A stretch of DNA of 32,098 bases, from contig JACQVA010000222.1 in NCBI GenBank assembly GCA_016210005.1, forward strand, positions 1-32,098. Direction: 5' to 3'. This document shows, in pieces, positions 159 through 17,436 of the stretch (position 1 is the stretch's first letter; the number at the start of each line of letters is the position of its first letter). Source of the DNA: Deltaproteobacteria bacterium (lineage in GTDB: Bacteria; Desulfobacterota; Binatia; HRBIN30; JACQVA1). The translations under genes and the position numbers were made by a program. Below the pieces are notes generated by a model. The model had not been told where the DNA came from, made no database searches, and was given only the letters and a program-made list of their open reading frames with translations.

Positions 159-268
159 ATTGAGCGTTCGGCCGGGATGCGGGCCGGGGCTACTGACTCG
201 CTCACGCCGATGTGCTACAGCCACGCGCGTCTATCGCCGCGAACTTCAGAGCCACGGGAGAGCAACGA

Positions 269-1378
269 ATGGGAAAGGCCGCCCGGCTGCAGCATCGCCG
301 CCGTATCGCTCCGCAGCCGATTCACCGCGCGATCTCGCTCACCGAGCTGGTCGACTCGACCTTCTTGGCATACAACGCCGCCCGCTTGCGGGAGGCCTGT
401 CAGGTGTTTACGCGCAGGATGCTGGCGCCGGAGGTAACCATCGGTGTCAGCCTCACAGGCGCACTCACTCCGGCCGGGGCCGGCATCGCCGCGCTGATTC
501 CGTTGATCGAGCACGGCTTCGTCGACTGGGTGGTGAGCACGGGCGCGAACCTCTACCACGACCTGCACTTCGGCATCGGTCTCGATCTTCACATGGGGAC
601 GCCGTTCGTAAGCGACGTGGAGTTGCGCGGTGAAGGGGTGGTGCGGATCTACGACGTCTTCTTCGACTACACCGTGCTGCTCGAAACCGATGCGTTTTGC
701 CGCCAGGTGATCGCGGCGCCCGAGTTTCAGCGCAGCATGAGCACGGCGGAGTTCCACTACCGGCTCGGCGCCTACGTTTGCGAGCGCGAGCGCGTGCTCG
801 GCCTCGGCCGCCGCTCGCTGCTGGCCGCCGCGCACGTACACGGCGTACCGGTCTATACCTCGTCGCCGGGGGACAGCTCGATCGGCATGAACGTGGCCGC
901 GCTGGCGTTGACCGGCAACCAGCTCGCTTTCGACGTCTCGCGCGACGTCAACGAAACCGCCGCCATCGTCTATGCGGCCAAACAGCACGAAGGCCGCAGC
1001 GGCGTACTGCTGCTCGGTGGTGGCTCGCCGAAGAACTTCGTGTTGCAAACCGAACCGCAAATCCAAGAGGTGCTGGGCATTGCCGAAAGCGGCCACGACT
1101 TCTTCATTCAAGTGACCGATGCCCGCCCCGACACCGGCGGGTTGTCGGGGGCCACGCCCAACGAGGCCGTCAGCTGGGGCAAGGTCGATCCGCAGGCGCT
1201 GCCCGACGCGGTCGTCTGCTACCTCGATGCCACCGTCGCCCTGCCGATTCTGACCGCCTACGCGCTCGCCAATCATGAGCCGCGAACGCACAAGCGGCTC
1301 TACGATCAGCGCGAGGCCTTGTTGGCGGACCTGACGGCCGAATATCGCCGCGTCAGCAAACAACAGGAGAGCCGCTGA
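269..1378 (+). CDS. Deoxyhypusine synthase-like protein (possible homospermidine synthase)
   Basis: A 369-residue member of the deoxyhypusine synthase (DHS) family. Eukaryotic and archaeal DHS uses NAD and spermidine to transfer a 4-aminobutyl group to a lysine of eIF5A. Bacteria lack that substrate, and some bacterial homologues make homospermidine from small polyamines. The segment [16 protein letters not shown] carries the lysine (about residue 305) that forms the enzyme-imine intermediate in DHS, so the catalytic centre looks intact. [11 protein letters not shown] and [10 protein letters not shown] are other conserved stretches. The ATG at 269 is chosen because GGGAG lies 8 nt upstream; the frame is open back to 212. 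The stop overlaps the next start (TGATG), so translation of the two genes is probably coupled. The polyamine role is inferred from family, not shown. Confidence 0.85.
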
Positions 1379-2184: not shown

Positions 2185-2979
2185 CTAGCGGTGCGCAGCG
2201 GCAGCCATGCGCGCCAAGCCCGGCAGGTCGGAAATCAGCCCGTCCACCCCCAGCGCCAGCAACCGCTCCATCTCGGGGCGATCGTTGATGGTCCAGGCGT
2301 GGATCTCCAAGCCGAAGCGGTGCGCGGCGGCCACGCTCGGCGCACTGATCAGCTCGATATCGCCGAACTGCGGCGGGATCTGCAGCGCCCGGCCGGCGGG
2401 CCGATAGTCGGCGAAACCGGTACTCAGCCGGCCGACGAAATCGAGCACGTCGCCGGTCGAGAAGCTGGTGTCGATCTGCTCGCCCGCGGCCGCGCGGATG
2501 GCGGCCATGATCGCGTCGTGTTCGGCGGCCAGCAGCACGTCGGCGCCGCGCCCGGCCGCGAGGATCAGGCGCACGACCTCTTCGGCAATTGCCGGCTGCG
2601 CCTGCTTGACCTCGATGTTGCAGCGCGCCTTGGGAAAGCGCGCCAGCAGTTCCGCCAGCGTCGGTACGCGCACGCCCTGGCCGCGGTAGGGATAGTGTTT
2701 GCCGTCGAAGGTGAAGTGATAGCCGGCATCGAGGCCGGTCACTTCTGCCAGGGTGTAGGAGTTGACCGGCCCGGAGCCGTCGGTGGTGCGGTCGAGCGTC
2801 TCATCGTGCATCACCACGATGTGGCCGTCGCGGGTGCCGTGGACGTCGAGTTCGAGGTAGCCAGCGCCCAGTTCCAGCGCCAGTGCGAACGACGGCAGGG
2901 TGTTCTCCGGCGCCAAGCCGGCAGCGCCGCGGTGCCCAAACACCCGCGGGTGCGGGCCGCAAAAGTAGTTTGAGGTCAC
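2185..2979 (-). CDS. Glycerophosphodiester phosphodiesterase
   Basis: A 264-residue GDPD-family TIM-barrel enzyme that hydrolyses glycerophosphodiesters to sn-glycerol 3-phosphate and an alcohol. The N-terminus has the family signature FGHRGAAGLAPENTLPSF (His16, Arg17, Glu25). This is followed by ELDVHGTRDG (Glu43, Asp45) and VVMHDETLDRTTDG (His58), the metal and catalytic residues. No signal peptide is visible, so it is probably cytoplasmic like UgpQ. The start is GTG at 2979, 14 nt after the stop of the M23 peptidase gene and without a clear Shine-Dalgarno. It is probably co-transcribed with, and therefore under the same riboswitch as, that peptidase gene. Confidence 0.9.
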   Translation of the reverse strand: MTSNYFCGPHPRVFGHRGAAGLAPENTLPSFALALELGAGYLELDVHGTRDGHIVVMHDETLDRTTDGSGPVNSYTLAEVTGLDAGYHFTFDGKHYPYRGQGVRVPTLAELLARFPKARCNIEVKQAQPAIAEEVVRLILAAGRGADVLLAAEHDAIMAAIRAAAGEQIDTSFSTGDVLDFVGRLSTGFADYRPAGRALQIPPQFGDIELISAPSVAAAHRFGLEIHAWTINDRPEMERLLALGVDGLISDLPGLARMAAAAHR

Positions 2980-2993
2980 AAACGGTGCGCGGG

Positions 2994-4298
2994 CTATTGG
3001 GTGATCGAGACCACGCCCGGCCGGCGCGTCGGTGGCAGCGCGGCCAACAGCGTCGGCTCCACCGGTACCGCACTCGGCGGCCGCGGCACGCCCGCGAGCC
3101 GGGTCAACAGCCCCTGCTTCGCCAACTGAAAGCGCTGCGGATCAGCGATCAGCCGCCGCAGCGACACCCGCGCCGTCAGCGGATTGAGGTACTGCCCGTT
3201 ACGATAAAGCGCGAAGTGCAAGTGCGGGCCGGTGGTCAAGCCGGTCTGCCCGACCCAACCGATCACTTGCCCCTGCCTGACGGCCGTTCCCGCGCGCAAG
3301 TCGCGGGCGATGCCGCGCAGGTGCGAGTACGTCGTCGACAGCCCCTCGCCGTGGCGCACGGCGATCTGGTTGCCGTAGTCGCCGTTGCGCCCGGCGGCGA
3401 TCACCACGCCGTCGCCGGCGGCGCGCACCGGCGTGCCTACAGGCGCGGCGAAGTCGACGCCATTGTGCGGCCGCGTGTGCTTCAATATGGGATGAAACCG
3501 CGCCCCCGAGAACACCGAGCTGATACGAGTGAACTCCACCGGGTAGCGCAAGAAGCTCTGGGCGAGGACCCGCCCGCTGGCATCGACGTAGGTGCCTTCG
3601 ACCCCGTCGTCGTAATAAAAAGCCTGCGCCAGCCGCTTGGCGCTGCGGATCTCCGCGGCCAGCACCCGGCCCGGCGGTAGCACACGGCCGTCACTGCTGA
3701 CGCGGCGCTCGTACAACACCCGGAAGCGATCGCCCGCTTGGACTCGCCGGAAATCGAATTCCCAGCCGAGGATATCGGCCATCTGCGAAATGATCTGATC
3801 AGGGATACCGGTGCGCCGCGCCGCCTGGTGGAAGTTCTTCTCGACCACGCCCTCTGCGCCGACCACCGTCACCTTGATCGCCAGCGGCTCGGTCCGACCA
3901 CGCAGCTGCTTGCCCGCGCGTTCGACGACCACGCGGGTGTGGTTGTCGACTTCGTAGTTGAGCGCGGCCAAGCGGCCGCCGCGTTCGAGCTGAAGTACCA
4001 GCACGTGCCCCGGCGCCAGCTGCACCGGGCCGGCGGCAGTGCGGATCGCCTTGTCCCACTGGGCGATCTCGCGACGGCTCAGGCCGCGCTTAGCCAGAAT
4101 GCCGGTGAGGGTCTCTGTGCGTTGCACCACGTGGCGCACGCTCTTGTTGCTGGCGGGAGCGGCGGCAGCCGGACGAGGCGCGGTGGTGGCGGAACGCCTT
4201 GCCGCACGGCTGGCCCACGCGGGTTGGCTGAAGATGGCGGCACCGACGGCGAAGCCTAACAGCCACGCCGATCGCACCTGAAACCGTTGGTTTCTCAC
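2994..4298 (-). CDS. Secreted M23 (LytM-type) murein endopeptidase under riboswitch control
   Basis: A 434-residue exported zinc metallopeptidase expected to cut peptidoglycan cross-links in the periplasm. The GTG at 4298 is chosen because GGAAGGAGAG ends just upstream and the peptide then begins with a good signal sequence (VRNQRFQVRSAWLLGF, hydrophobic core, cut after PAWA). Residues about 50-110 resemble the LysM/OapA-like N-terminal region of MepM-type enzymes. The C-terminal M23 domain has HNGVD (His278, Asp282), a conserved His near 326 and HLH (His359, His361), the full zinc/catalytic set, so it is probably an active hydrolase rather than an activator. A c-di-AMP riboswitch and an intrinsic terminator lie in its 5' leader. 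The phosphodiesterase gene follows after 14 nt. Confidence 0.92.
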   Translation of the reverse strand: MRNQRFQVRSAWLLGFAVGAAIFSQPAWASRAARRSATTAPRPAAAAPASNKSVRHVVQRTETLTGILAKRGLSRREIAQWDKAIRTAAGPVQLAPGHVLVLQLERGGRLAALNYEVDNHTRVVVERAGKQLRGRTEPLAIKVTVVGAEGVVEKNFHQAARRTGIPDQIISQMADILGWEFDFRRVQAGDRFRVLYERRVSSDGRVLPPGRVLAAEIRSAKRLAQAFYYDDGVEGTYVDASGRVLAQSFLRYPVEFTRISSVFSGARFHPILKHTRPHNGVDFAAPVGTPVRAAGDGVVIAAGRNGDYGNQIAVRHGEGLSTTYSHLRGIARDLRAGTAVRQGQVIGWVGQTGLTTGPHLHFALYRNGQYLNPLTARVSLRRLIADPQRFQLAKQGLLTRLAGVPRPPSAVPVEPTLLAALPPTRRPGVVSITQ

Positions 4299-4367
4299 GA
4301 CGCGCTCTCCTTCCTGCGACACAGTAGAAGAGAGGCTCCCCATGACCACGCACAGCCATCGGCCGCC

Positions 4368-4397
4368 AAAAAAAATCGGCAGAGGATCGCTCCCCTG
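4368..4397 (-). terminator. Intrinsic terminator, expression platform of the riboswitch
   Basis: On the minus strand a 7-bp stem (CAGGGGA/TCCTCTG with one G-U pair) closes a GCGA loop and is followed by CCGA and eight T residues. It lies between the riboswitch aptamer and the M23 gene, about 70 nt before the start codon. A terminator here fits an OFF switch in which ligand binding leads to early termination. Confidence 0.8.
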
Positions 4398-4414
4398 GCC
4401 GTATCCAGTTTGGC

Positions 4415-4548
4415 GCCTCTCCTTGAAGGCCGGCGAAGTTAGCTGACGGGTTAGGGCTCAAAGAGTTGCCCATCCCGGGGCTGGTGCCACCGAGATTCAC
4501 CCCAAAACGAAACCTGGGTCCTCCGCTCCTCGTTTCTGAGGATTAGGC
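4415..4548 (-). promoter_or_regulatory. c-di-AMP riboswitch (ydaO/yuaA class)
   Basis: The minus-strand leader of the M23 gene carries the conserved blocks of the ydaO aptamer in order: GCCTAATCCTC near the 5' end, GCGGAGGACCCA, TTGGGGTGAATC, GGGCAACTCTTTGAGCCC, then CCGTCAGCTAAC and finally GGAGAGGC. GCCT near the 5' end can pair with AGGC at the 3' end to form P1. This class binds cyclic di-AMP and in other bacteria controls cell-wall hydrolases and potassium or osmolyte transport. A terminator follows 18 nt downstream. Aptamer identity is from motif recognition; ligand and direction of control are from family knowledge. Confidence 0.92.
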
Positions 4549-4563
4549 CTATGTCGCGTCGCA

Positions 4564-4592
4564 GTCGTACTGAACTTTGCCGTGGGAATCAA
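4564..4592 (-). promoter_or_regulatory. Possible promoter for the riboswitch leader
   Basis: On the minus strand TTGATT (4587-4592) and TACGAC (4564-4569) are separated by 17 nt, and predicted initiation falls just before the aptamer. The match to the sigma-70 consensus is only moderate; the position is the main argument. The rest of 4593-4634 shows no further signal. Confidence 0.3.
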
Positions 4593-4634
4593 GCTCGCGG
4601 CGAATCTTTTTTTCCGTTGCCGCTGGAGTACTGG

Positions 4635-5453
4635 TCACGACCGGGGCAAGCGGAAACACGCGACGGTGTTGGCGTGGGTGCGCGCCGCTAGCTCGCCGAG
4701 CGAAACGCCGCGGATGGCGGCGAGGGCTTGGGCGGTAAACAGGACGTAGGCCGGCTCGTTGCGGCGGCCGCGCAGTGGGGCGGGGGTCAGAAACGGGGCG
4801 TCGGTTTCGATCAATAGCCGGTCCGCCGGCGTCAGCCGCGCGGCGGCTTGCAGCTCACCGGCATTCTTGAAGGTCACGATGCCGCTGAACGAGAGATAGA
4901 AGCCGAGGTCGAGAAAGGCGCGAGCCTCGGCTGCCGAGCCGGAGAAGCAATGGATCACGCCACCAACTTCAGCGGCGCCTTCTTCGCGCATGATGGTGAT
5001 CGCCACTTCACCGGCGTCGCGCAAGTGAATGGTGAGCGGCAAGCGCAGCCGGCGGGCCAGTGCGATGCAGCGGCGGAAGGCGGCTTCCTGTGCCGGCCGC
5101 GGCGAGTTGTCGTAGTAGAAATCCAGGCCGGTCTCACCGATGGCCAGCACTTTCGGCTGCTGCGCCAGACGTTCGAGTGCCGCCAACGCCGGCTCCGAGG
5201 CCTCACTGGCAGCGTGCGGATGAATGCCGACGGTGGCGAAGATCGCCGGGTGCAGTGCCGCCAAGGCCACCGCCTCGTCGTTGCACTGCAACGGCCCGCC
5301 GGCACCGATCGTGATCATGGTGGTAACGCCGGCGGCAATGGCGCGAGTGATCACCGCCTCGCGATCGCCGGCAAAGCGCTCCTCGTCCAAGTGGCAGTGG
5401 GAATCAATTGCGCTCACGCCCGCGGTCAGGCGCGGCAAGTCGGCGGGGGCCAT
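4635..5453 (-). CDS. tatD: TatD family metal-dependent deoxyribonuclease
   Basis: A 272-residue TIM-barrel hydrolase of the TatD (YcfH/YabD) family, metal-dependent enzymes with 3'-5' exonuclease activity on DNA or RNA. It shows DSHCHLDEERF at the N-terminus (first two metal-binding His), GETGLDFYYD (bridging Glu), IHLRDAGE, IHCFSGSA and ETDAPFLTP (last metal-binding Asp). The ATG at 5453 is preferred; an in-frame TTG two codons earlier is possible. It follows metG by 94 nt on the same strand, an order also seen in Bacillus (metS-yabD). I see no terminator between its stop and the riboswitch promoter region. Confidence 0.92.
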   Translation of the reverse strand: MAPADLPRLTAGVSAIDSHCHLDEERFAGDREAVITRAIAAGVTTMITIGAGGPLQCNDEAVALAALHPAIFATVGIHPHAASEASEPALAALERLAQQPKVLAIGETGLDFYYDNSPRPAQEAAFRRCIALARRLRLPLTIHLRDAGEVAITIMREEGAAEVGGVIHCFSGSAAEARAFLDLGFYLSFSGIVTFKNAGELQAAARLTPADRLLIETDAPFLTPAPLRGRRNEPAYVLFTAQALAAIRGVSLGELAARTHANTVACFRLPRS

Positions 5454-5547
5454 TAGCAACCGCTCGACTGCCGAGAAGCGCGGGCACGGAGTGGGAAGCT
5501 TCGCTTGCGAGCGCCCTTGGCCGCGGCGCGGAGCCGGCGCCGCCGTC

Positions 5548-7077
5548 TCATTGGTTGGGCTCGATGCGCGGGAACAGGATCAGCGATGGGCCGGTCACAT
5601 GGCCGCTGTGGAAGTGCGTACCCCAAGCGCCGTCGAGGGCGGGGGTGCCCGGCAGGTTGAGGGCGCTCAGGATGCGCTCACTGGTCTCGGGCAGAAACGG
5701 CTCCAGCAACGTCGCCGAGACGCGCAAGGCTTCGAGCAGGTGATGCAGGATGGCGCCGACGCGCGGGCGCTGGGCGGCATCCTTGGCCAGCGTAAACGGC
5801 GCCGTGACCACGATGTACTTGTTGGCGTGATCAATGGCGCGCCACAGTGATTCCAGCGCGCGGTGAAAAGCCATCCGCTCGATCAGCTCCGGCACCTCCC
5901 GCGCCGCCAGCGCGAAGGCCGCGATCAGCGCCCGATCATCCTCGCTCGACTCGCCCAGCGGCTGCACCGCCCCTTGGAAGTAACGCTGTTGCATCGACAG
6001 GGTGCGGCTGACGAGGTTGCCGAGATTGTTGGCCAGGTCGGCGTTGACGCGGGTGATGAAGCCGTCCTCGGTGAACGAGGCGTCCTGGCCGAAGACCATG
6101 TCGCGCAGCAGGAAGTAACGAAACGCGTCCATGCCGTAACGCGCCTTCATGTCGAGCGGCCGGATGGTGTTGCCCAGGCTCTTCGACATCTTGCTCTCGC
6201 CGCGAATCCAGTAGCCGTGCACGCGCAGCTGCTGGTAGAGCGGCAAGCCCAACGCCATCAGCATGGTCGGCCAGAAGATGCCGTGGGGCTTGAGAATGTC
6301 CTTGCCGATCAAATGGTGCACCGCCGGCCAGAAGCGCTGGAAGACGTCTTCGCCTTGGGCCTTGAGCACGCTGATGTAGCTGATCAGCGCATCGAACCAG
6401 ACGTAAGTGACGTAGGCGGGATCGAAGGGCAGCTCGATGCCCCACGTCAGCCGCGACTTCGGCCGTGAGATGCACAGGTCGCCGAGCGCCTCGCCCCGCA
6501 GCAGGGCCAGCACTTCGTTGCGATACTGCTCGGGGACGATCAACTGCGGGCGGGCCTCGAGTTCGGCCAGCAGGCGCGCCTGGTACTTGCTCATGCGGAA
6601 GAAGTAGTTGTCCTCGGACACCGGCGCCGGCGCCTTGAGATGGTCCGGACACAGGCCGTTGACCAGCTCCTTCTCGGTGTACAGCCGCTCGCACTCGGTG
6701 CAGTAGAGGCCGGAGTAACTCCCGAAATATATGTCACCCGCGGTGTGCAGCTGGCTGAGGAAGCCCCGCACCACCTCGACGTGAGTGCAATCGGTGGTGC
6801 GGACGAAGGCATCGTGGGTGAAGCCGCACGCGGCCCAGGTGTCGCGGAAGATGCGGCTGACCCGATCGGCATGCTGGCGCGGCGGCAGTCCGGCGGCGGC
6901 GGCGGCGTTGGCGATCTTGTCACCGTGTTCGTCGGTGCCGGTGATGAAGTAGGTCTCCTCCCCGCGGCGGCGGTGGGAGCGTGCCAGCACGTCGGCGATC
7001 AGGGTGGTGTAAGTGTGGCCGAGGTGGGGCTCGGCATTGATGTAGTAGATCGGCGTGGTGACGTAAAAGCGGCTCAT
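5548..7077 (-). CDS. metG: Methionyl-tRNA synthetase
   Basis: A 509-residue class I aminoacyl-tRNA synthetase that charges tRNA-Met. The Rossmann-fold signature PHLGH (residues 17-21, the HIGH box) and KMSKS (296-300) are both intact. The connective-peptide knuckle has Cys126, Cys129, Cys143 and His146, a CCCH zinc site like that of Thermus MetRS rather than the CCCC type. The protein ends without the C-terminal Trbp111-like tRNA-binding extension, so it is the short form. The ATG at 7077 lies 21 nt after the ricT stop, within the tmk-holB-ricT-metG-tatD run. Confidence 0.96.
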   Translation of the reverse strand: MSRFYVTTPIYYINAEPHLGHTYTTLIADVLARSHRRRGEETYFITGTDEHGDKIANAAAAAGLPPRQHADRVSRIFRDTWAACGFTHDAFVRTTDCTHVEVVRGFLSQLHTAGDIYFGSYSGLYCTECERLYTEKELVNGLCPDHLKAPAPVSEDNYFFRMSKYQARLLAELEARPQLIVPEQYRNEVLALLRGEALGDLCISRPKSRLTWGIELPFDPAYVTYVWFDALISYISVLKAQGEDVFQRFWPAVHHLIGKDILKPHGIFWPTMLMALGLPLYQQLRVHGYWIRGESKMSKSLGNTIRPLDMKARYGMDAFRYFLLRDMVFGQDASFTEDGFITRVNADLANNLGNLVSRTLSMQQRYFQGAVQPLGESSEDDRALIAAFALAAREVPELIERMAFHRALESLWRAIDHANKYIVVTAPFTLAKDAAQRPRVGAILHHLLEALRVSATLLEPFLPETSERILSALNLPGTPALDGAWGTHFHSGHVTGPSLILFPRIEPNQ

Positions 7078-10559: not shown

Positions 10560-13500
10560 CTACGGCAGCGGGCGGTTGTAGATCTTCTTGTCCACCAAGG
10601 CGCCGGGCCCGATGCCGATGGCGGTGGCGCCACCCATCAGGCCACCACGTGCAACGCCCTTCGAGCCCAGAGAGATGTCGCGCTCGGTGGCGAGCAGCGT
10701 GGCCTCGAGCTGAGCCTCCTGCTCCACGGTGGCGGTGCCACCGGCGCCCTGCACGTTGATCAGCACCTGGTTCGGCAGCACCCCGCTGACCTTGATCTTG
10801 CCCAGCCGAGCGACGCGGAACGTGCCGGTTACGTTGATCACCACCGCCGTGCCCGGGTTGGAGGCGGCGGAAATAATCAGAGTCCCGCGGGCATCGACCT
10901 GCAAGTTACCCAGCCGGATGAGGTTGAGCTGCCCCGGTGTAACCGCCAGCGTTTGGGTCCCGTTAGCCGGCACCAAGATGCCGGTCATCGTGGTATTCAC
11001 GCTCCCGCACGCGAGCGGATCGGCGATGATATCGGCCGCCGCTTTGGCGGTGGTGGCGGCGGTGGCACACAGCGACACTTGGGCAGCAGCAGTAGGATCG
11101 GGGGCGATAAAGGTGCCCACTGGGTTGATGACCGCTGGCGCACCCGGGCTGACGGAACCACCGCCGGTGTAGATGCCGTTGGCAACCGAGCACGCGCCGC
11201 CGAACGAGACCGCGCCGCCCGTCGTCTTGGTCGCGATCACCTTGCCGCCCAGCACGGAGTTCTTTCCAAAACTGCTCTTCCAGGTACAGATGTTACCGGT
11301 CACCGTCGTGGGCGAGAGGCCAGTGAGCTGGATCGAGGTCGAGTTGATTCCCAGCACACTGAATGTCTTGGCTTGGCCCAAGTTGGCCGGGCCGATGCGG
11401 CCGAAGCAGACGCCGGAGTGGCAGCGATCATTGAGAGTGCCGGCGTTGCCATCGTTACACGCGGTGCAATCCGGCTCGTTGCAGTTCAACGCCGCCTCGT
11501 TGCAGGTGTGGGCGCACGTTGTACCCGGCACGCACGGGTCCCCGGCGTGCAGCGAGCAGCTACCACTGTCGCAGGTATCCGCGCCGTTGCAGAATACGCC
11601 GTCATCGCATGGGGCCGCGTTGTTGGTGTTGGTACATCCCGCCAAGGTGCAGGTATCATCCGTGCACAACTCGCTATCGTCGCAGAGCGAGTCGTCCGTG
11701 GTACCGGCACAAGTCCCGGCGCCATCGCAGGTGTCGTTCACCGTGCAGTTCACCCCGTCATCGCAAGGGTCGGAGTTGAACGGGTACTGGCAGTCCAACG
11801 TCGCATCGCAGACATTGTCGGTACAGACATCGGCGTCATCGCAATTGCCGTCGTTGGTCGCATTCACGCAGCCGATGATGACGCTGCACGTATCATCAGT
11901 GCAGCCGACGCCGTCGTCGCAGGCCGCGTCATTCGGGGCGTTGTCGCAACCGCTGACGTCGCTGCAAGTGTCGGTGGTGCAGCCGATGCCGTCATCGCAA
12001 GCGGCGTTGACCTCGGTGTTGGTACAGGTGCCGGTGGGCTCGTTGCAGGTGTCGGTGGTGCAGCTGATGCTGTCGTCACAATCCACCGCGGTGCCGGCGA
12101 CGCAACCGTCGGGTCCGGCCAGCGGGTCGAGCGGGTCGCAGGTCTCGGTGCCGGTGCAAGCCAGACCGTCGTCACAGTCGTTATCGGTGTCACAGGCGAC
12201 CACGCAATACGAGATCGGAGTGACGTCGCCGAGCAAAGCCCAGTCGTCATCGTCGTAGAGGTAGCCCTCCTCCACGCCGGTTCCCGGCGTGACATCGCTG
12301 GAAGTGAACTGGTTGCATACTGCGGATACGTTGTTGACGCCGATGTTCTCGATGTCACAGTAGGCGCCGCCGATGCAATTGCCGAAAATGCCCCCGCTAT
12401 TGCCCTTGATCTTGTTGTTGCCGTTGCTGCCGCCGTTGTAGAAGCCGCCGCCGAGGTCGATGGCGTAGTTGGTTGCGGTGGTCACCGAGGTGGCGTCGAT
12501 CCCGATGGCGTTGCCGCTGTTGCCGGTGATCGTGTTGCTGCGCAAAGCCACCCCGACCAGCCCACCAGCAGGCCCACTGGCGCCGACGAGGTCAATCAGC
12601 ACCCCGGTACCGGTGTTTCCGCTGACGTCGTTGTTCAACACCAGCGCGGTGCCTTCTGCGCCGCTATCGGTGTAACGAACTTCGATGCCGGAGTTGGCGC
12701 TCTGGTTCCCCGACACCGTGTTGTTGCTGATCGTCGGGTTAAACTCGAACCCGACAGCGCTGTTGTTGATGTCCAAGGCCTCGGCGATAATCCCGGCGCC
12801 GGCGTTGCCGGTGACCGTGTTGTTGGAAATAGCGACCGGCAGTGCGGTCAGCGAGCCGGCGGAGCTGGCGATCGATGACCAGTTACTGGCGATGAAGTGG
12901 ATACCGTCGCCGCCGGTGCTGCCGGTGACCGTGTTGTTGGAAATCGTGGCCTGCGGAGAAACGGTGGCCCGGTCCATTTCGCTCCAACTGGAGAAACTCA
13001 CCAAGATGCCGTCGCCGCCGGGCGAGGTGATGGTGTTGCCGCTGACGGTCGCACTAACGAGCAGCCTGGCATCCTCCATGTCGGACAAGCTGCTCACGCT
13101 CAGTTCGACGCCGCGGTCACCTGGGCTTGCAATGGTGTTGCCGCCGATCAGCATGTCGGCGAGTACGATGATCGACGTGGCGGAGTCCGAGATTTCGGAA
13201 ACCTCCATGTCAACCCCATCGTCCACGGGGCCAGTAATAGTATTTCCGACGATTATAGGTTGAAACGCCAGTATGACGCTGGTGGCAGTGCTCGTAAACG
13301 AAGTCGCGGCAACGTAGATGCCGTCGTCGCCGGCCCCGGTGATGGTGTTGCCGACTACGAGCGGCCTGAAAGTCATGATGTTGTCGCCGTTCTCGAGGTC
13401 GCTGGCGGCCAAGCTCATGCCGTCGCCGCCGGGGTTGGTGATGAAGTTGCCGACCACAATCGGGGCCACCAGGCCTTCCGCGTCGCTGGTGGCGGACACT

Positions 13501-14264
13501 TTAATCGCGTCGACCCCGGAGGTGGTGCCCACCGAAGACATCGCGTTCGACGAGATCAGCGGAGCCATCACTTGCAGTAGGCCGCTCTCGGAGGCATAGA
13601 ACGCGACCGCCCCGAATCTCTGTCCGGCGAAAGAGTTGTAACGGATCGTCGGCGACAAGTTCACCGCGTTGCCCGAATCGTCATCGTTAAAAGCGGCCAC
13701 GCCACGGCCACCACCGTCGAACGAATTCAGTTCGATCACCGCGGTGACCGCGTCGAAGCCGTACAAGTCGTCGATCTGGATACCGTCGCCCGCGGTTGTG
13801 GTAGTAAAGGTCCCGAATGTGGTGGTGATGGTGTTGGTTGCCGCGCCCGGCCGAATGGTCATGCCGGAGATGGTCGACTGCGTCAGCGGGCCACTGGCGT
13901 TGAAGACGTCATTGCCGTTGGTGCCGTCATTGGCATCGACGACTACGCTGCTCGGCGAGCCGGTGTTGCCAATGACCGAGACGCAATCCTTCAGTCCGAT
14001 GGGAAACAAGTCGCCATTGGCGGTGTCGTAGGTACCGTCGGCGAGCAGCACCTTATCCGCCACCGGGCAACCGTCGGCGCGGGTGCCGATGGCGTAGCCA
14101 ACGGTGCGGCAGGAGGGATTGACCCCGACACCGCAACTGGCGGTGTCGGTGGCGCTCACGCCCGTGGACACCTGGATATCAACTGCCCGCGCCGGCGGGA
14201 GAACGAGCCAGGAACCTAGTACCACGGCCAGTGTGCCTACCCACGACGAGCGTACGTAAATCAT
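10560..14264 (-). CDS. Large secreted beta-helix protein with Cys/Asp-rich repeats
   Basis: A 1234-residue exported protein of unknown function. Residues 1-27 are a signal peptide (MIYVRSSWVG..., cut after PPARA). Residues about 100-625 form a right-handed parallel beta-helix region with ten recurring GNTIT/NNTVT turns spaced 31-38 residues apart, mostly 33-35. Residues about 690-955 hold eight or nine copies of a CDDG-x2-C-x4-DTC-x4-5-GC module, like the Dictyostelium-type Cys repeats found in secreted proteins of delta-type bacteria. The last 270 residues are Gly/Ala/Val-rich beta sequence (NVTGTFRVARLGKI, INVQGAGG) that vaguely resembles choice-of-anchor or ice-binding-like domains. The ATG at 14264 has no Shine-Dalgarno but sits 7 nt after a -10 box, which suggests a leaderless mRNA. 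It is probably a surface or extracellular structural or adhesive protein. Confidence 0.85.
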   Translation of the reverse strand: MIYVRSSWVGTLAVVLGSWLVLPPARAVDIQVSTGVSATDTASCGVGVNPSCRTVGYAIGTRADGCPVADKVLLADGTYDTANGDLFPIGLKDCVSVIGNTGSPSSVVVDANDGTNGNDVFNASGPLTQSTISGMTIRPGAATNTITTTFGTFTTTTAGDGIQIDDLYGFDAVTAVIELNSFDGGGRGVAAFNDDDSGNAVNLSPTIRYNSFAGQRFGAVAFYASESGLLQVMAPLISSNAMSSVGTTSGVDAIKVSATSDAEGLVAPIVVGNFITNPGGDGMSLAASDLENGDNIMTFRPLVVGNTITGAGDDGIYVAATSFTSTATSVILAFQPIIVGNTITGPVDDGVDMEVSEISDSATSIIVLADMLIGGNTIASPGDRGVELSVSSLSDMEDARLLVSATVSGNTITSPGGDGILVSFSSWSEMDRATVSPQATISNNTVTGSTGGDGIHFIASNWSSIASSAGSLTALPVAISNNTVTGNAGAGIIAEALDINNSAVGFEFNPTISNNTVSGNQSANSGIEVRYTDSGAEGTALVLNNDVSGNTGTGVLIDLVGASGPAGGLVGVALRSNTITGNSGNAIGIDATSVTTATNYAIDLGGGFYNGGSNGNNKIKGNSGGIFGNCIGGAYCDIENIGVNNVSAVCNQFTSSDVTPGTGVEEGYLYDDDDWALLGDVTPISYCVVACDTDNDCDDGLACTGTETCDPLDPLAGPDGCVAGTAVDCDDSISCTTDTCNEPTGTCTNTEVNAACDDGIGCTTDTCSDVSGCDNAPNDAACDDGVGCTDDTCSVIIGCVNATNDGNCDDADVCTDNVCDATLDCQYPFNSDPCDDGVNCTVNDTCDGAGTCAGTTDDSLCDDSELCTDDTCTLAGCTNTNNAAPCDDGVFCNGADTCDSGSCSLHAGDPCVPGTTCAHTCNEAALNCNEPDCTACNDGNAGTLNDRCHSGVCFGRIGPANLGQAKTFSVLGINSTSIQLTGLSPTTVTGNICTWKSSFGKNSVLGGKVIATKTTGGAVSFGGACSVANGIYTGGGSVSPGAPAVINPVGTFIAPDPTAAAQVSLCATAATTAKAAADIIADPLACGSVNTTMTGILVPANGTQTLAVTPGQLNLIRLGNLQVDARGTLIISAASNPGTAVVINVTGTFRVARLGKIKVSGVLPNQVLINVQGAGGTATVEQEAQLEATLLATERDISLGSKGVARGGLMGGATAIGIGPGALVDKKIYNRPLP

Positions 14265-14271
14265 GGGCGGC

Positions 14272-14300
14272 GTTTTACAGCCGGGGGCGGAAGCCGTCAA
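14272..14300 (-). promoter_or_regulatory. Promoter of the beta-helix gene, predicted leaderless start
   Basis: On the minus strand TTGACG (14295-14300) and TAAAAC (14272-14277) are separated by 17 nt. Seven nucleotides lie between the -10 box and the A of the ATG at 14264, so initiation should fall on or next to the start codon. Confidence 0.5.
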
Positions 14301-14377: not shown

Positions 14378-16855
14378 TCAGTGGGCACGGGCGGCGGGCT
14401 TCTTGGGCCGTTTGACGAGGGGGCCGAGGAGCGGGTCGTCAGCGAAGCGGGCGCGCACCGAATCGCCGCCGAGCTTGATGGCCTGCTCGATGTGTGCTTG
14501 GGCATCAGCTTTGCGCCCGGCTTGCACTTCCAAGCGGGCCAAGCGCAGCCACCAGGTGGCGTTCTTGGGGTTGCCCTCGGCCACCTTGCGCAGCAAAGCG
14601 ACGGCGTCATCGAGACGGCCCGTCTCCTGGTAGGCGAGGGCGAGGTTGTTGTAGGCCACACCGGCCTGGGGATTGAGCTTGATTGCGCGTTCGAGCAGGG
14701 TGGTAGCCTCGGCAAACTGCTTGTTTTTGAACAGCAACGTACCGAGGTTATAGACGGCCTCGAAGTGCTCGGGGCTAAGTTCAATCACGCGGCGATAGGT
14801 GGCGATGGCGCGCCCGGTCTGACCAGTTCGATCGTAGTAGCCACCGAGGTTATTGAGCGTCGGCACGTGGTCGGGCTCGATTTCGAGGGCGCGGCGATAA
14901 AAGCCGGCGGCCTCCTCTCGATTGCCCTGGGAATCGGCCACCACACCCAAGTTGTAAAGCGCATCGGCATTGTGCGGGTCCATGTCGATGGCCTTCTGCA
15001 AGGTGGCGCGGGCTTCGGTCTCCCGGCCGGCGCGGTGGTAAGTGTTGCTTAGACCGATGAGCGCTTTGACGTAGAGCGGATCGCGGCGCAGAGCCTCCTC
15101 GTACCACTCGATGGCCTTGTTGATGTTGCCGGATTCTTGAAACAGGTCGGCGAACTCGTTGGCCAGCTCGGGCTCGTTACCGCCGCCGGCCAGCGCCTGC
15201 TTGAGGACTTCGAAGGCATTGGCCAGATCGCCCTGGCGCCGGTACAGGCGCGCCAGGGCCGTACGGCCCTGCTGCCGGCGGGGGTCGAGGGCGATGACCT
15301 TCTCGATCTCGGCCTTGGCGGCCTCGGGTTGTCCGATGGCCAGCAGGGCGTTGCCGAGCGAGCTGCGGGCCATGATGTTGCCGGCATCCTTTTCGAGCAG
15401 GGCGCGCAACGCCGCCACCGCCTCTTCGTGCTTGCGGCGGCGCATGAGATTTTGCGCCTCTTGGAACTCTTCCCACAGCCCGATCTTGTCCTTGGGGTCA
15501 GGTAAGCCTTCGCCGGCCACCGCGCCCTTGTCATCGACGTTGTAGCCCAACGCCGCCAGGCGCTCGCGGTCGGCGGCGCTCAACTTGAGGCTGGCATCGG
15601 CGCCGCTGCCGGTGAGCAGCACGTCGGTGCGCAGATACTCATCGAGGCGGCGGGAGAACTGCGCCAGCAGCGGCGGCTGCTCGGCCAAGAGGTTACGGCT
15701 CTCCTGCGGGTCGGCCGCGAGGTCGTACCACTCGGCGCGGGGGGCGCGGATGTACTTTGCGGCGGTCGTGCGCACGCCGCGCAGCTCGGCCCAGCCGTTG
15801 TTGAAACGCGGCACCAGGGTCTCGATGTAGCTTTCAAGATCGGCGGAGCGGCCGCCGGCCAGCAACGGCACCAGGCTCTCCCCGTCCACGTTCCCCGGTA
15901 TCGGGAGGCGCAGCAGGTCGAGGACGGTGGGCACGATGTCGATGGTACGCACTTGCCCTGCGACGCGGTGTCCCTGGTGCAAGGCGGGATGACTCATGAT
16001 CAAGGGCACGTGCAGCGTGGCGTCGTAGAGCAGCAGCGAATGCGTGGCTTCGCCGTGCTCGCCGAGGCTTTCCCCGTGATCCGCCACCACCACCATCAGC
16101 GTGTCCGCCAAGCGGTTGAAATCGCCGAGCGCGCTGATCACGCGGCCGATCTCGGCATCGACGCCGGCGATCTCGCCGTCGTACGGGCGCTTGTCGTACA
16201 GCACGTCGAACGGCGGCGGCGGCTCGTAGTTGGCGTGCACGTCGAAGTAGTGCAGCCAGAGCATGAACGACTGCTGGTGGTGCTCGCGCAACCACGCCAC
16301 GCCTTGGTCAGTGACCGAGCGCCCGGGCCGCTCGTCGAACATGAACATCGGCCCCTTCTTGCCGGTGTGGAGGTTGTCGTCGTAACTGTCGAAGCCCTGA
16401 TCGAGGCCGAACTTGGAATCGAGCACGAAGGCACCGATGACGGCGCCGGTGTGGTAGCCTTGCCGCTTGAGGATTTCGGCCAGCGTCTCTTCTGTGTCGG
16501 GCACCCTGAAGGTGCCATTGTTGCGCACGCCGTGGTGAGTCGGGTAACGGCCGGTGAATATGGAAGTGTGGCTGGGCAGAGTCAGCGGCACCGGCGTAAT
16601 CGCCTGCTCGAACAGCACCCCGCGCTGCGCCAGGGCGTCGAGGTGCGGCGTCTTGATGTCCTTGTAACCGTAAGCGGCCAGGTGGTCGGCCCGGGTGGTG
16701 TCGAGGGTAATGACCACGAGGTTGCGGATCTGGGTGCGGTCAACGCGCGGGCCGAACCACTGGCAGCCGGCCAGTAGCGCGCACGCCAGTGCCAGCAGCG
16801 CAGCTGGTCGCCGGCCGGGTTTGGGGCTCGCCTGTAACACCGGGCTGTGGTTCAC
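14378..16855 (-). CDS. Sulfatase-like lipoprotein with C-terminal TPR array
   Basis: An 825-residue protein with a lipoprotein signal (ALLALACALLAGC, lipid Cys31), an alkaline-phosphatase-superfamily domain (about 45-480) and some ten to eleven tetratricopeptide repeats (about 490-810). Metal ligands are visible in ITLDTTRADH (Asp52) and VVADHGESLGEHG (Asp259, His260, His267). At the nucleophile position the sequence is LTLPSHTSIFTGRYP (Thr92) where sulfatases have C/S-x-P-x-R, so no formylglycine can form. A Thr nucleophile points to a phospho-ester or phospho-transfer reaction, as in other members of the superfamily. The frame is open to 17383, but GTG at 16855 is chosen because it gives the lipoprotein signal and lies 26 nt after the upstream stop. 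The substrate is unknown; the TPRs suggest a protein partner. Confidence 0.85.
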   Translation of the reverse strand: MNHSPVLQASPKPGRRPAALLALACALLAGCQWFGPRVDRTQIRNLVVITLDTTRADHLAAYGYKDIKTPHLDALAQRGVLFEQAITPVPLTLPSHTSIFTGRYPTHHGVRNNGTFRVPDTEETLAEILKRQGYHTGAVIGAFVLDSKFGLDQGFDSYDDNLHTGKKGPMFMFDERPGRSVTDQGVAWLREHHQQSFMLWLHYFDVHANYEPPPPFDVLYDKRPYDGEIAGVDAEIGRVISALGDFNRLADTLMVVVADHGESLGEHGEATHSLLLYDATLHVPLIMSHPALHQGHRVAGQVRTIDIVPTVLDLLRLPIPGNVDGESLVPLLAGGRSADLESYIETLVPRFNNGWAELRGVRTTAAKYIRAPRAEWYDLAADPQESRNLLAEQPPLLAQFSRRLDEYLRTDVLLTGSGADASLKLSAADRERLAALGYNVDDKGAVAGEGLPDPKDKIGLWEEFQEAQNLMRRRKHEEAVAALRALLEKDAGNIMARSSLGNALLAIGQPEAAKAEIEKVIALDPRRQQGRTALARLYRRQGDLANAFEVLKQALAGGGNEPELANEFADLFQESGNINKAIEWYEEALRRDPLYVKALIGLSNTYHRAGRETEARATLQKAIDMDPHNADALYNLGVVADSQGNREEAAGFYRRALEIEPDHVPTLNNLGGYYDRTGQTGRAIATYRRVIELSPEHFEAVYNLGTLLFKNKQFAEATTLLERAIKLNPQAGVAYNNLALAYQETGRLDDAVALLRKVAEGNPKNATWWLRLARLEVQAGRKADAQAHIEQAIKLGGDSVRARFADDPLLGPLVKRPKKPAARAH

Positions 16856-16881
16856 GCTGCTGACGTGCTCGTTGGCACGGA

Positions 16882-17436
16882 TCACTTGGCAACCGCGAAA
16901 GCGGTGTAGCCGGCACCCGTACCTTCGATCAGGAGGAGGCGCTCGCAGCGCCAGCCGGGGGCGATCGGCGCCCCGTTGGCGGGCGTGGCGGTGGACACCT
17001 CGTCGCACTGCACCTTGGTGGCGGACCAGACGGCGGAGAGCACCAGCACCTCGCCGGCGTTCGGGGTGGCCTTCAGCTGGCAGGCTTGCCCGGCCGGGCA
17101 CGCCCCGCCCACGGGCTTGCCACCGAGCTGGGGCACGGAGGGGTTTTGCACCGTTACCGGCAGTGGCAGCGGGCCGTGCAGCTCGAACACTTTCGGTGGT
17201 TTGTCCTTGCCCTTTTCCTTCTTGCGCTCGCCCTTGGTCTTGCGTCGCTCGGACCGCCGCGCCGCGCGTTCTTCGGGCGACAGCTTCATCAATTCCTCGC
17301 GCCGCCGGAGCGCCTCTTCGGTTTGTTCCGCCACCCAGGTGGCCCGCGCTTCGGGGTCCTTTGGCGGCACGGCCTGAGGCCACGCCGCTGCCGGCAGAAG
17401 CAGCACCATCGCCAGGTACACAATTCCCTTGCGCAT
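16882..17436 (-). CDS. Secreted hypothetical protein, charged N-terminal segment
   Basis: A 184-residue protein I do not recognise. The ATG at 17436 follows an excellent Shine-Dalgarno (GGAGGTGAG) and begins a signal peptide MRKGIVYLAMVLLLPAAAW cut near PQA. Residues about 25-80 are strongly charged and helical (EEALRRREELMKLSPEERAA, then a KTKGERKKEKGKDK stretch). Residues about 85-184 are beta-rich with four cysteines (GGACPAGQACQLK, VQCDEV, WRCERLLL). A TATTAT -10-like box on the minus strand at 17462-17467 could place initiation about 15-20 nt before the start. The gene precedes the sulfatase-TPR gene by 26 nt and is probably co-transcribed with it. No function is assigned. Confidence 0.7.
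   Translation of the reverse strand: MRKGIVYLAMVLLLPAAAWPQAVPPKDPEARATWVAEQTEEALRRREELMKLSPEERAARRSERRKTKGERKKEKGKDKPPKVFELHGPLPLPVTVQNPSVPQLGGKPVGGACPAGQACQLKATPNAGEVLVLSAVWSATKVQCDEVSTATPANGAPIAPGWRCERLLLIEGTGAGYTAFAVAK

Follow-up and report, generated by a model that had tools for sequence, protein, structure and literature searches.

A putative c-di-AMP riboswitch with a terminator and a candidate anti-Shine-Dalgarno box before a murein peptidase gene in an uncultured Binatia lineage

How might a bacterium with two membranes put the cutting of its murein under the control of cyclic di-AMP (c-di-AMP)? The question is raised by a leader at 4559-4299 on the minus strand of contig JACQVA010000222.1 (assembly GCA_016210005.1), a stretch of 32,098 nucleotides (nt) from a Deltaproteobacteria bacterium of the class Binatia, which was analysed at its full length and is called the window here. 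The leader stands before the gene of an M23 murein peptidase. Its ligand, direction and switching are what we infer: in a reading that we hold with moderate confidence, it would be a c-di-AMP OFF riboswitch with two outputs, termination of transcription and sequestration of the Shine-Dalgarno sequence (SD), which share one switching strand, S.

Aptamer, terminator and a conserved box

The aptamer occupies 4412..4559 (this and all further leader positions are on the minus strand). It matches the c-di-AMP (ydaO/yuaA) model RF00379 from end to end (model 1-134 of 134) with 90.6 bits and E 3.1e-20, the gathering score being 38 bits, and is the sole Rfam match above threshold anywhere in the window. 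A first-pass annotation, made from the letters alone, had claimed a ydaO-type aptamer at 4415-4548, and this span proved correct within about a dozen bases. By its sequence the leader is confirmed as a member of the c-di-AMP riboswitch family. The loop ACUCUUUGAG (4457..4466) is complementary to AAGGAGAG and is the partner of strand S (GGAGAGG, 4416..4422) at the 3' end of the aptamer; the pairing of this loop with the 3' strand is presumably the pseudoknot of the RF00379 family. Loop and strand match each other locus by locus, as none of 5000 permutations reached the observed sum in the 28 phylum loci outside the class, and p was 0.0014 in a group of nine class loci. Within the window's order both are nearly invariant. 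Among the loci tested there are single exceptions, for example L022, L021, L027, L028 and L047, for which foreign strands are often equally good.

S is complementary not only to the aptamer loop but also to the 3' arm of a terminator (5 base pairs in the window) and to a downstream box, CCUCUC, and it lies 117 nt from the start codon of the M23 gene. The intrinsic terminator hairpin CGGCCAGGGGAGCGAUCCUCUGCCG has its stem at 4377..4401 with -15.5 kcal/mol and a terminator-scan match at 4397-4380, and a run of eight U follows at 4368..4375, just as the first-pass annotation had described it after the aptamer. The scan of 3900-6500 gave 3 sites against 1.8 +/- 1.6 in shuffles, a number unremarkable by itself. 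A U-tailed hairpin of similar sequence stands directly after the aptamer in the second riboswitch copy of this genome (L001) and in the nearest riboswitch-bearing relative (L038). Over the 12 leaders of the order, a hairpin qualifies as a terminator in three (both copies of this genome and genome G463), and no site was found in the other nine. A hairpin that resembles a terminator, T-run included, is also seen at 4576-4604 of the window on the plus strand, immediately upstream of the aptamer, where no plus-strand gene is assigned; it may be due to chance.

The box (4330..4335) is present in all 12 order-level leaders, 35-42 nt upstream of the start codon, including the nine that keep no U-tailed terminator site. 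It is a candidate anti-SD and anti-S element, being complementary both to S and to the SD AAGGAGAG (4305..4312) of the M23 gene, a strong one 6 nt before GTG 4298, with which it pairs in the predicted fold. All eight representative leaders have the box in common, while in 2000 dinucleotide-shuffled sets CCTCTC was shared by at most three of eight leaders and any 6-mer by at most six. Tested against S and SD jointly, with 300 shuffles per locus, the box gave p <= 0.007 in 8/9 loci of family f110, and none of 5000 order-level permutations matched S to its own leader as well as observed, with few strand types and related loci in that set. The SD varies, and in loci with GGAGGGG it can still pair with the box through G-U; in five M23-type leaders an extra pair is gained, with C after S and G before the box. 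The aptamer, terminator, box and SD, with their complementarities, are plainly present in the letters of the leader. The box may be a second element of the expression platform beyond the terminator, one that the first-pass annotation overlooked, and termination perhaps accounts for half of the output.

Folding and the proposed switching

In the mechanism that we favour, c-di-AMP binding would keep S in the aptamer pseudoknot, the terminator would form and no full transcript would be made; in transcripts that escape, the box CCUCUC would pair with the SD and prevent translation. Without ligand, S would pair with the 3' arm of the terminator and then with the box as RNA polymerase advances, and the SD would be left open. 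High c-di-AMP would then mean low output of the murein endopeptidase, and of the phosphodiesterase encoded after it if the two genes are co-transcribed, and the second copy would exert the same control on a transglycosylase of the RlpA type.

The calculated pairing energies in the window are -15.9 kcal/mol for S:box, -13.8 for box:SD, -12.8 for S:loop and -8.7 for S with the terminator arm. The 161-nt 3' part of the leader folds at -68.3 kcal/mol (z -2.29, with 4 of 200 shuffles equally good), in folds that exclude the aptamer part upstream of S, and this structure contains the terminator and the box:SD hairpin together. In the window leader a forced S:box helix lifts the probability that the SD region is unpaired from 0.16 to 0.65, and SD exposure increases by at least 0.25 in nine of the 12 loci.

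A number of results weigh against this mechanism. Forcing S:box opened the SD little or not at all in L038 (+0.07), L041 (+0.02) and L043 (0.60 to 0.47). The S:box state lies above the minimum energy in all 12 loci, by 0.6-11.5 kcal/mol and by 2.2 in the window, and even with S free the SD of the window leader is closed in the fold of lowest energy. Blocking S, as the ligand would, barely alters the exposure of the SD (0.16 to 0.22 in the window), as the SD is closed in the relaxed state anyway. Since the SD is closed at equilibrium, any open state would need to be a kinetic one, and in this model it would depend on S and the box being transcribed before the SD. For the window by itself the joint test of the box gives a weak result (p 0.123; box-S 0.024, box-SD 0.662), and it gave p = 0.097, 0.220 and 0.043 in L001, L038 and L043. 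The SD regions of L001 and L038 are best paired by the U-rich end of the terminator and not by the box, and the same end is the best partner of S in L001. All three terminator arms of the order type failed to prefer their own S over foreign strands, and S fitted its own leader no better than a foreign one in the 28 leaders outside the class (p 0.59). S and the box are invariant within the order, so that no covariation is possible for their helix, and since the leaders are related the 12 with the box do not count as 12 independent cases; their agreement is conservation, not independent origin. No sigma-70-type promoter was found in the scan of 3900-6500.

These results bear on a simpler hypothesis, namely that the leader is a transcriptional OFF switch only, in which c-di-AMP stabilises the aptamer, the terminator forms, and the box of this leader is a relic or unrelated. 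The hairpin with its eight U is what such a switch would need, and the Bacillus subtilis prototype acts by termination (passages of PMC9960051 and PMC5575661). The non-significant joint test in the window and an SD that is closed in the free fold regardless of S point the same way. What argues against it is the box itself, retained in 12/12 order leaders at a near-constant distance from the start even where, as in nine of them, no terminator-like site exists. We consider the termination-only switch unlikely, though it deserves serious weight.

Two further ideas were rejected. That the box pairs throughout the phylum was suggested by a look at several potassium-transporter leaders, and the permutation test did not bear it out (p 0.59). 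For a leader peptide, inspection by eye found that the frames right after the aptamer vary in length in the order's leaders and that some stop early.

Sister leaders, distribution and the c-di-AMP machinery

The favoured two-output reading may be set beside a sister family, f4, whose rlpA leaders (L037, L042, L044, L045, L051 and L028) have the strand in another setting. In 6/6 of them S (GGAGCGG) is positioned as the SD of rlpA, with 7-8 nt from GGAG to AUG. The start codon comes directly after the aptamer, and the frame stays open through the hairpin to an ASWYG motif in all six, over 44-59 residues of six different lengths, all in frame. The hairpin, with -23.1 to -26.2 kcal/mol in the six, lies inside the signal-peptide codons of rlpA, where it is read as AGGAIPR; it qualifies as a terminator in five and has too few U in L045. 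Second copies in two genomes (L052 in G449, L047 in G448) have an f4-type riboswitch and hairpin followed by non-rlpA genes that start further downstream, one of the two hairpins qualifying as a terminator. On the f4 arms the f4-type S reached -16.7 against -9.6 for the order-type strand in four cases, with smaller gaps in L045, L052 and L047. In these leaders the ligand likely hides the SD in the pseudoknot, so that no ribosome loads and the terminator forms.

The f4 leaders raise the hypothesis that S in the window, too, is a distant ribosome-loading site, which the ligand would hide and thereby lower translation directly, with the box as a modulator. The position of S 7-8 nt before the rlpA start in 6/6, with the hairpin inside an open frame, speaks for it, and so does the SAM-II metA leader, whose SD lies inside the riboswitch (abstract of PMC9373788). 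The M23 gene of the window, in turn, has its own strong SD 6 nt before GTG 4298, with S 117 nt upstream, and we judge this hypothesis improbable here. A broader proposal takes in both families: the Binatia riboswitch could be a two-checkpoint device, in which the pseudoknot yields one aptamer strand to the terminator and the terminator yields it to the anti-SD box, and which across lineages has re-used that strand as antiterminator, as anti-anti-SD or as the SD itself, in the last case with the terminator hairpin translated in a signal peptide. We offer it tentatively, with somewhat more doubt than belief.

The window is one contig of a 5.9-Mb genome, 97.57% complete and 4.52% contaminated, in which RF00379 has two matches. 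The second copy precedes the gene of an RlpA-family transglycosylase (DPBB_1 85.7 bits; TIGR00413 122.3 bits against a cut-off of 82.15). The link between riboswitch and murein is hence stronger than first claimed, as both copies found in the genome precede murein hydrolase genes. The genome also has a c-di-AMP cyclase, the check that the first-pass annotation had called for: its one DAC protein is CdaA (TIGR00159 232.1 bits, cut-off 188.8) and adjoins a YbbR protein. No match to the PgpH-type 7TM-7TMR_HD was found in the genome, and none to KUP. There are three DHH matches, two over the cut-off, and the DHH protein in a 343-residue frame (C47:17705-18136) could be an enzyme of the DhhP/NrnA type. 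Omp85 has three matches in the genome, and the two strong ones indicate a two-membrane cell, in line with the Gram-negative-like host assumed at first.

RF00379 was found in 15 of 148 class genomes, at 21 places, and in 52 of the 395 genomes sampled from the phylum, this one included; these searches used stricter filters, by which weak matches may be lost. Downstream of the 21 class places are 13 RlpA-type genes (eight by Pfam, five by the ASWYG region), five M23 genes (one split in two frames), two genes without an assignment and one contig end. The split M23 gene belongs to L055 (G459), where the break may reflect either a sequencing error or a gene that is really disrupted. Among the 28 loci outside the class, ten downstream proteins were scanned, comprising three KUP, five of the amino-acid permease family, one KdpA and one SLT transglycosylase. 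Transport genes thus follow the aptamer in 9/10 proteins elsewhere in the phylum sample, and here the regulon therefore appears to have moved towards the wall.

The distribution also bears on the hypothesis that the riboswitch has decayed or senses another ligand. That so few class genomes carry it (15/148) could be so read, and the DAC domain, found in 14/15 of the carriers and in 105/133 of the others, is weak evidence because it is common in the class anyway (119/148). Two full-length, high-scoring copies in this genome and a DAC domain in 14 of the 15 carriers, the only one without it being G476 (81% complete), make decay or another ligand very improbable in our view.

The controlled genes and known systems

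The M23 peptidase gene (2994..4298, minus strand, start GTG 4298) encodes a MepM/ShyC-like protein with a signal-like N-terminus and with Peptidase_M23 and Csd3_N2 domains (PF01551 111 bits, cut-off 28.7; PF19425 57.7 bits; both from a scan of the longer frame 2994-4349). The active site had been called intact, and its metal-site motifs are indeed present as H278-x3-D282 and H359-L-H361, with all four residues invariant in four rows. Relatives in a Candidatus Binatia metagenome-assembled genome (MAG), in Bacterium HR30 and in a 'Deltaproteobacteria' groundwater MAG are 61, 62 and 66% identical to it over the best segment, and RF00379 lies upstream of M23 in all three; by these relatives, too, the window is placed in Candidatus Binatia. 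Matches above 780 bits occur in four genomes, which are those of the four model rows themselves; the split gene of G459 comes next, and after it rank whole matches of 337-354 bits in G453, G454, G525 and G455, all of them genomes without an RF00379 match.

A gene of the GDPD family (2185..2979, minus strand, PF03009 156.4 bits) begins 14 nt after M23 and, from this spacing, is probably co-transcribed. The 'phosphodiesterase gene' of the first-pass annotation is thus a glycerophosphodiester phosphodiesterase and not a c-di-AMP phosphodiesterase. M23 and GDPD genes are adjacent in eight of nine further class loci, seven on one strand and L060 on opposite strands, and the genomes of these nine have no RF00379 match. 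The riboswitch loci of the three named relatives showed no GDPD match within 1.7 to 6 kb downstream. The suggested tie to phospholipid turnover is supported, from gene order alone, for the window's genome only, and is not seen in those three loci.

Before M23 in the window the gene order is holB-PSP1-metG-tatD, which resembles the metS-yabD-yabE region of B. subtilis. Synteny with that region was rejected. A close TatD match exists in 10/11 genomes searched; outside the window's genome it is on another contig than M23, more than 100 kb away, or in a genome with no near M23 relative known, and eight longer related loci have no TatD match. Elsewhere in the window we observed a deoxyhypusine-synthase-family protein, in a bacterium, at 212-1378 (plus strand; NCBIfam homospermidine biosynthesis protein, 553.4 bits, cut-off 450), a 1001-residue frame at 14378-17383 (minus strand) with a sulfatase domain and a long TPR array, and a 1246-residue frame at 10560-14300 (minus strand) whose sole match is a short DUF1565.

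Our analysis suggests that in an uncultured lineage with two membranes c-di-AMP controls two murein-cutting enzymes, an endopeptidase and a lytic transglycosylase. In NCBIfam the M23 protein is matched best by the murein DD-endopeptidases MepM (NF008652) and ShyC, with 195.6 and 210.4 bits, short of the 341 and 700 that the respective equivalog models require. Among the papers listed by the literature searches, judged from titles and abstract openings, there was no c-di-AMP leader that combines a terminator with an anti-SD, and for c-di-AMP, RlpA and riboswitch together only an essential-gene study of C. difficile, seen in part, turned up. The leaders form a natural series, with terminator and box, with the box alone, and with the SD in the aptamer and the hairpin in the gene, and the evolution of the expression platform is therefore testable in vitro.

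The ydaO/kimA riboswitch of B. subtilis (RF00379), an OFF switch by termination as described in excerpts of PMC9960051 and PMC5575661, shares its aptamer family with the window leader; it controls a potassium importer, whereas the window leader has a murein peptidase and a conserved box able to pair with the SD. In the SAM-II metA leader of Sinorhizobium meliloti the SD belongs to the riboswitch, and a terminator separates the first AUG from an in-frame AUG, much as in the f4 rlpA leaders; the internal SD is needed for translation from the AUG 74 nt downstream, past the terminator (PMC9373788, in part). The aptamer and ligand of that leader are different, and in the window the gene's own SD and start codon both lie beyond the terminator. 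Closer in target are the rpfA riboswitch of Streptomyces, for which termination in vitro is reported (portions of PMC9960051 and PMC10117811), and that of nlpC in Corynebacterium glutamicum, for which translational control by c-di-AMP with a CTCC/GGAG anti-SD has been proposed (PMC9960051, in part). Both control secreted cell-wall hydrolases, much as the window leader would, and the riboswitch-controlled wall enzymes in passages of PMC9960051 and PMC10117811 come from Gram-positive bacteria. Their hosts are Gram-positive, whereas the window leader unites a U-tailed terminator with an anti-SD box, and it would give the c-di-AMP riboswitch family a new target and a new lineage, with an expression platform that is possibly a new variant.
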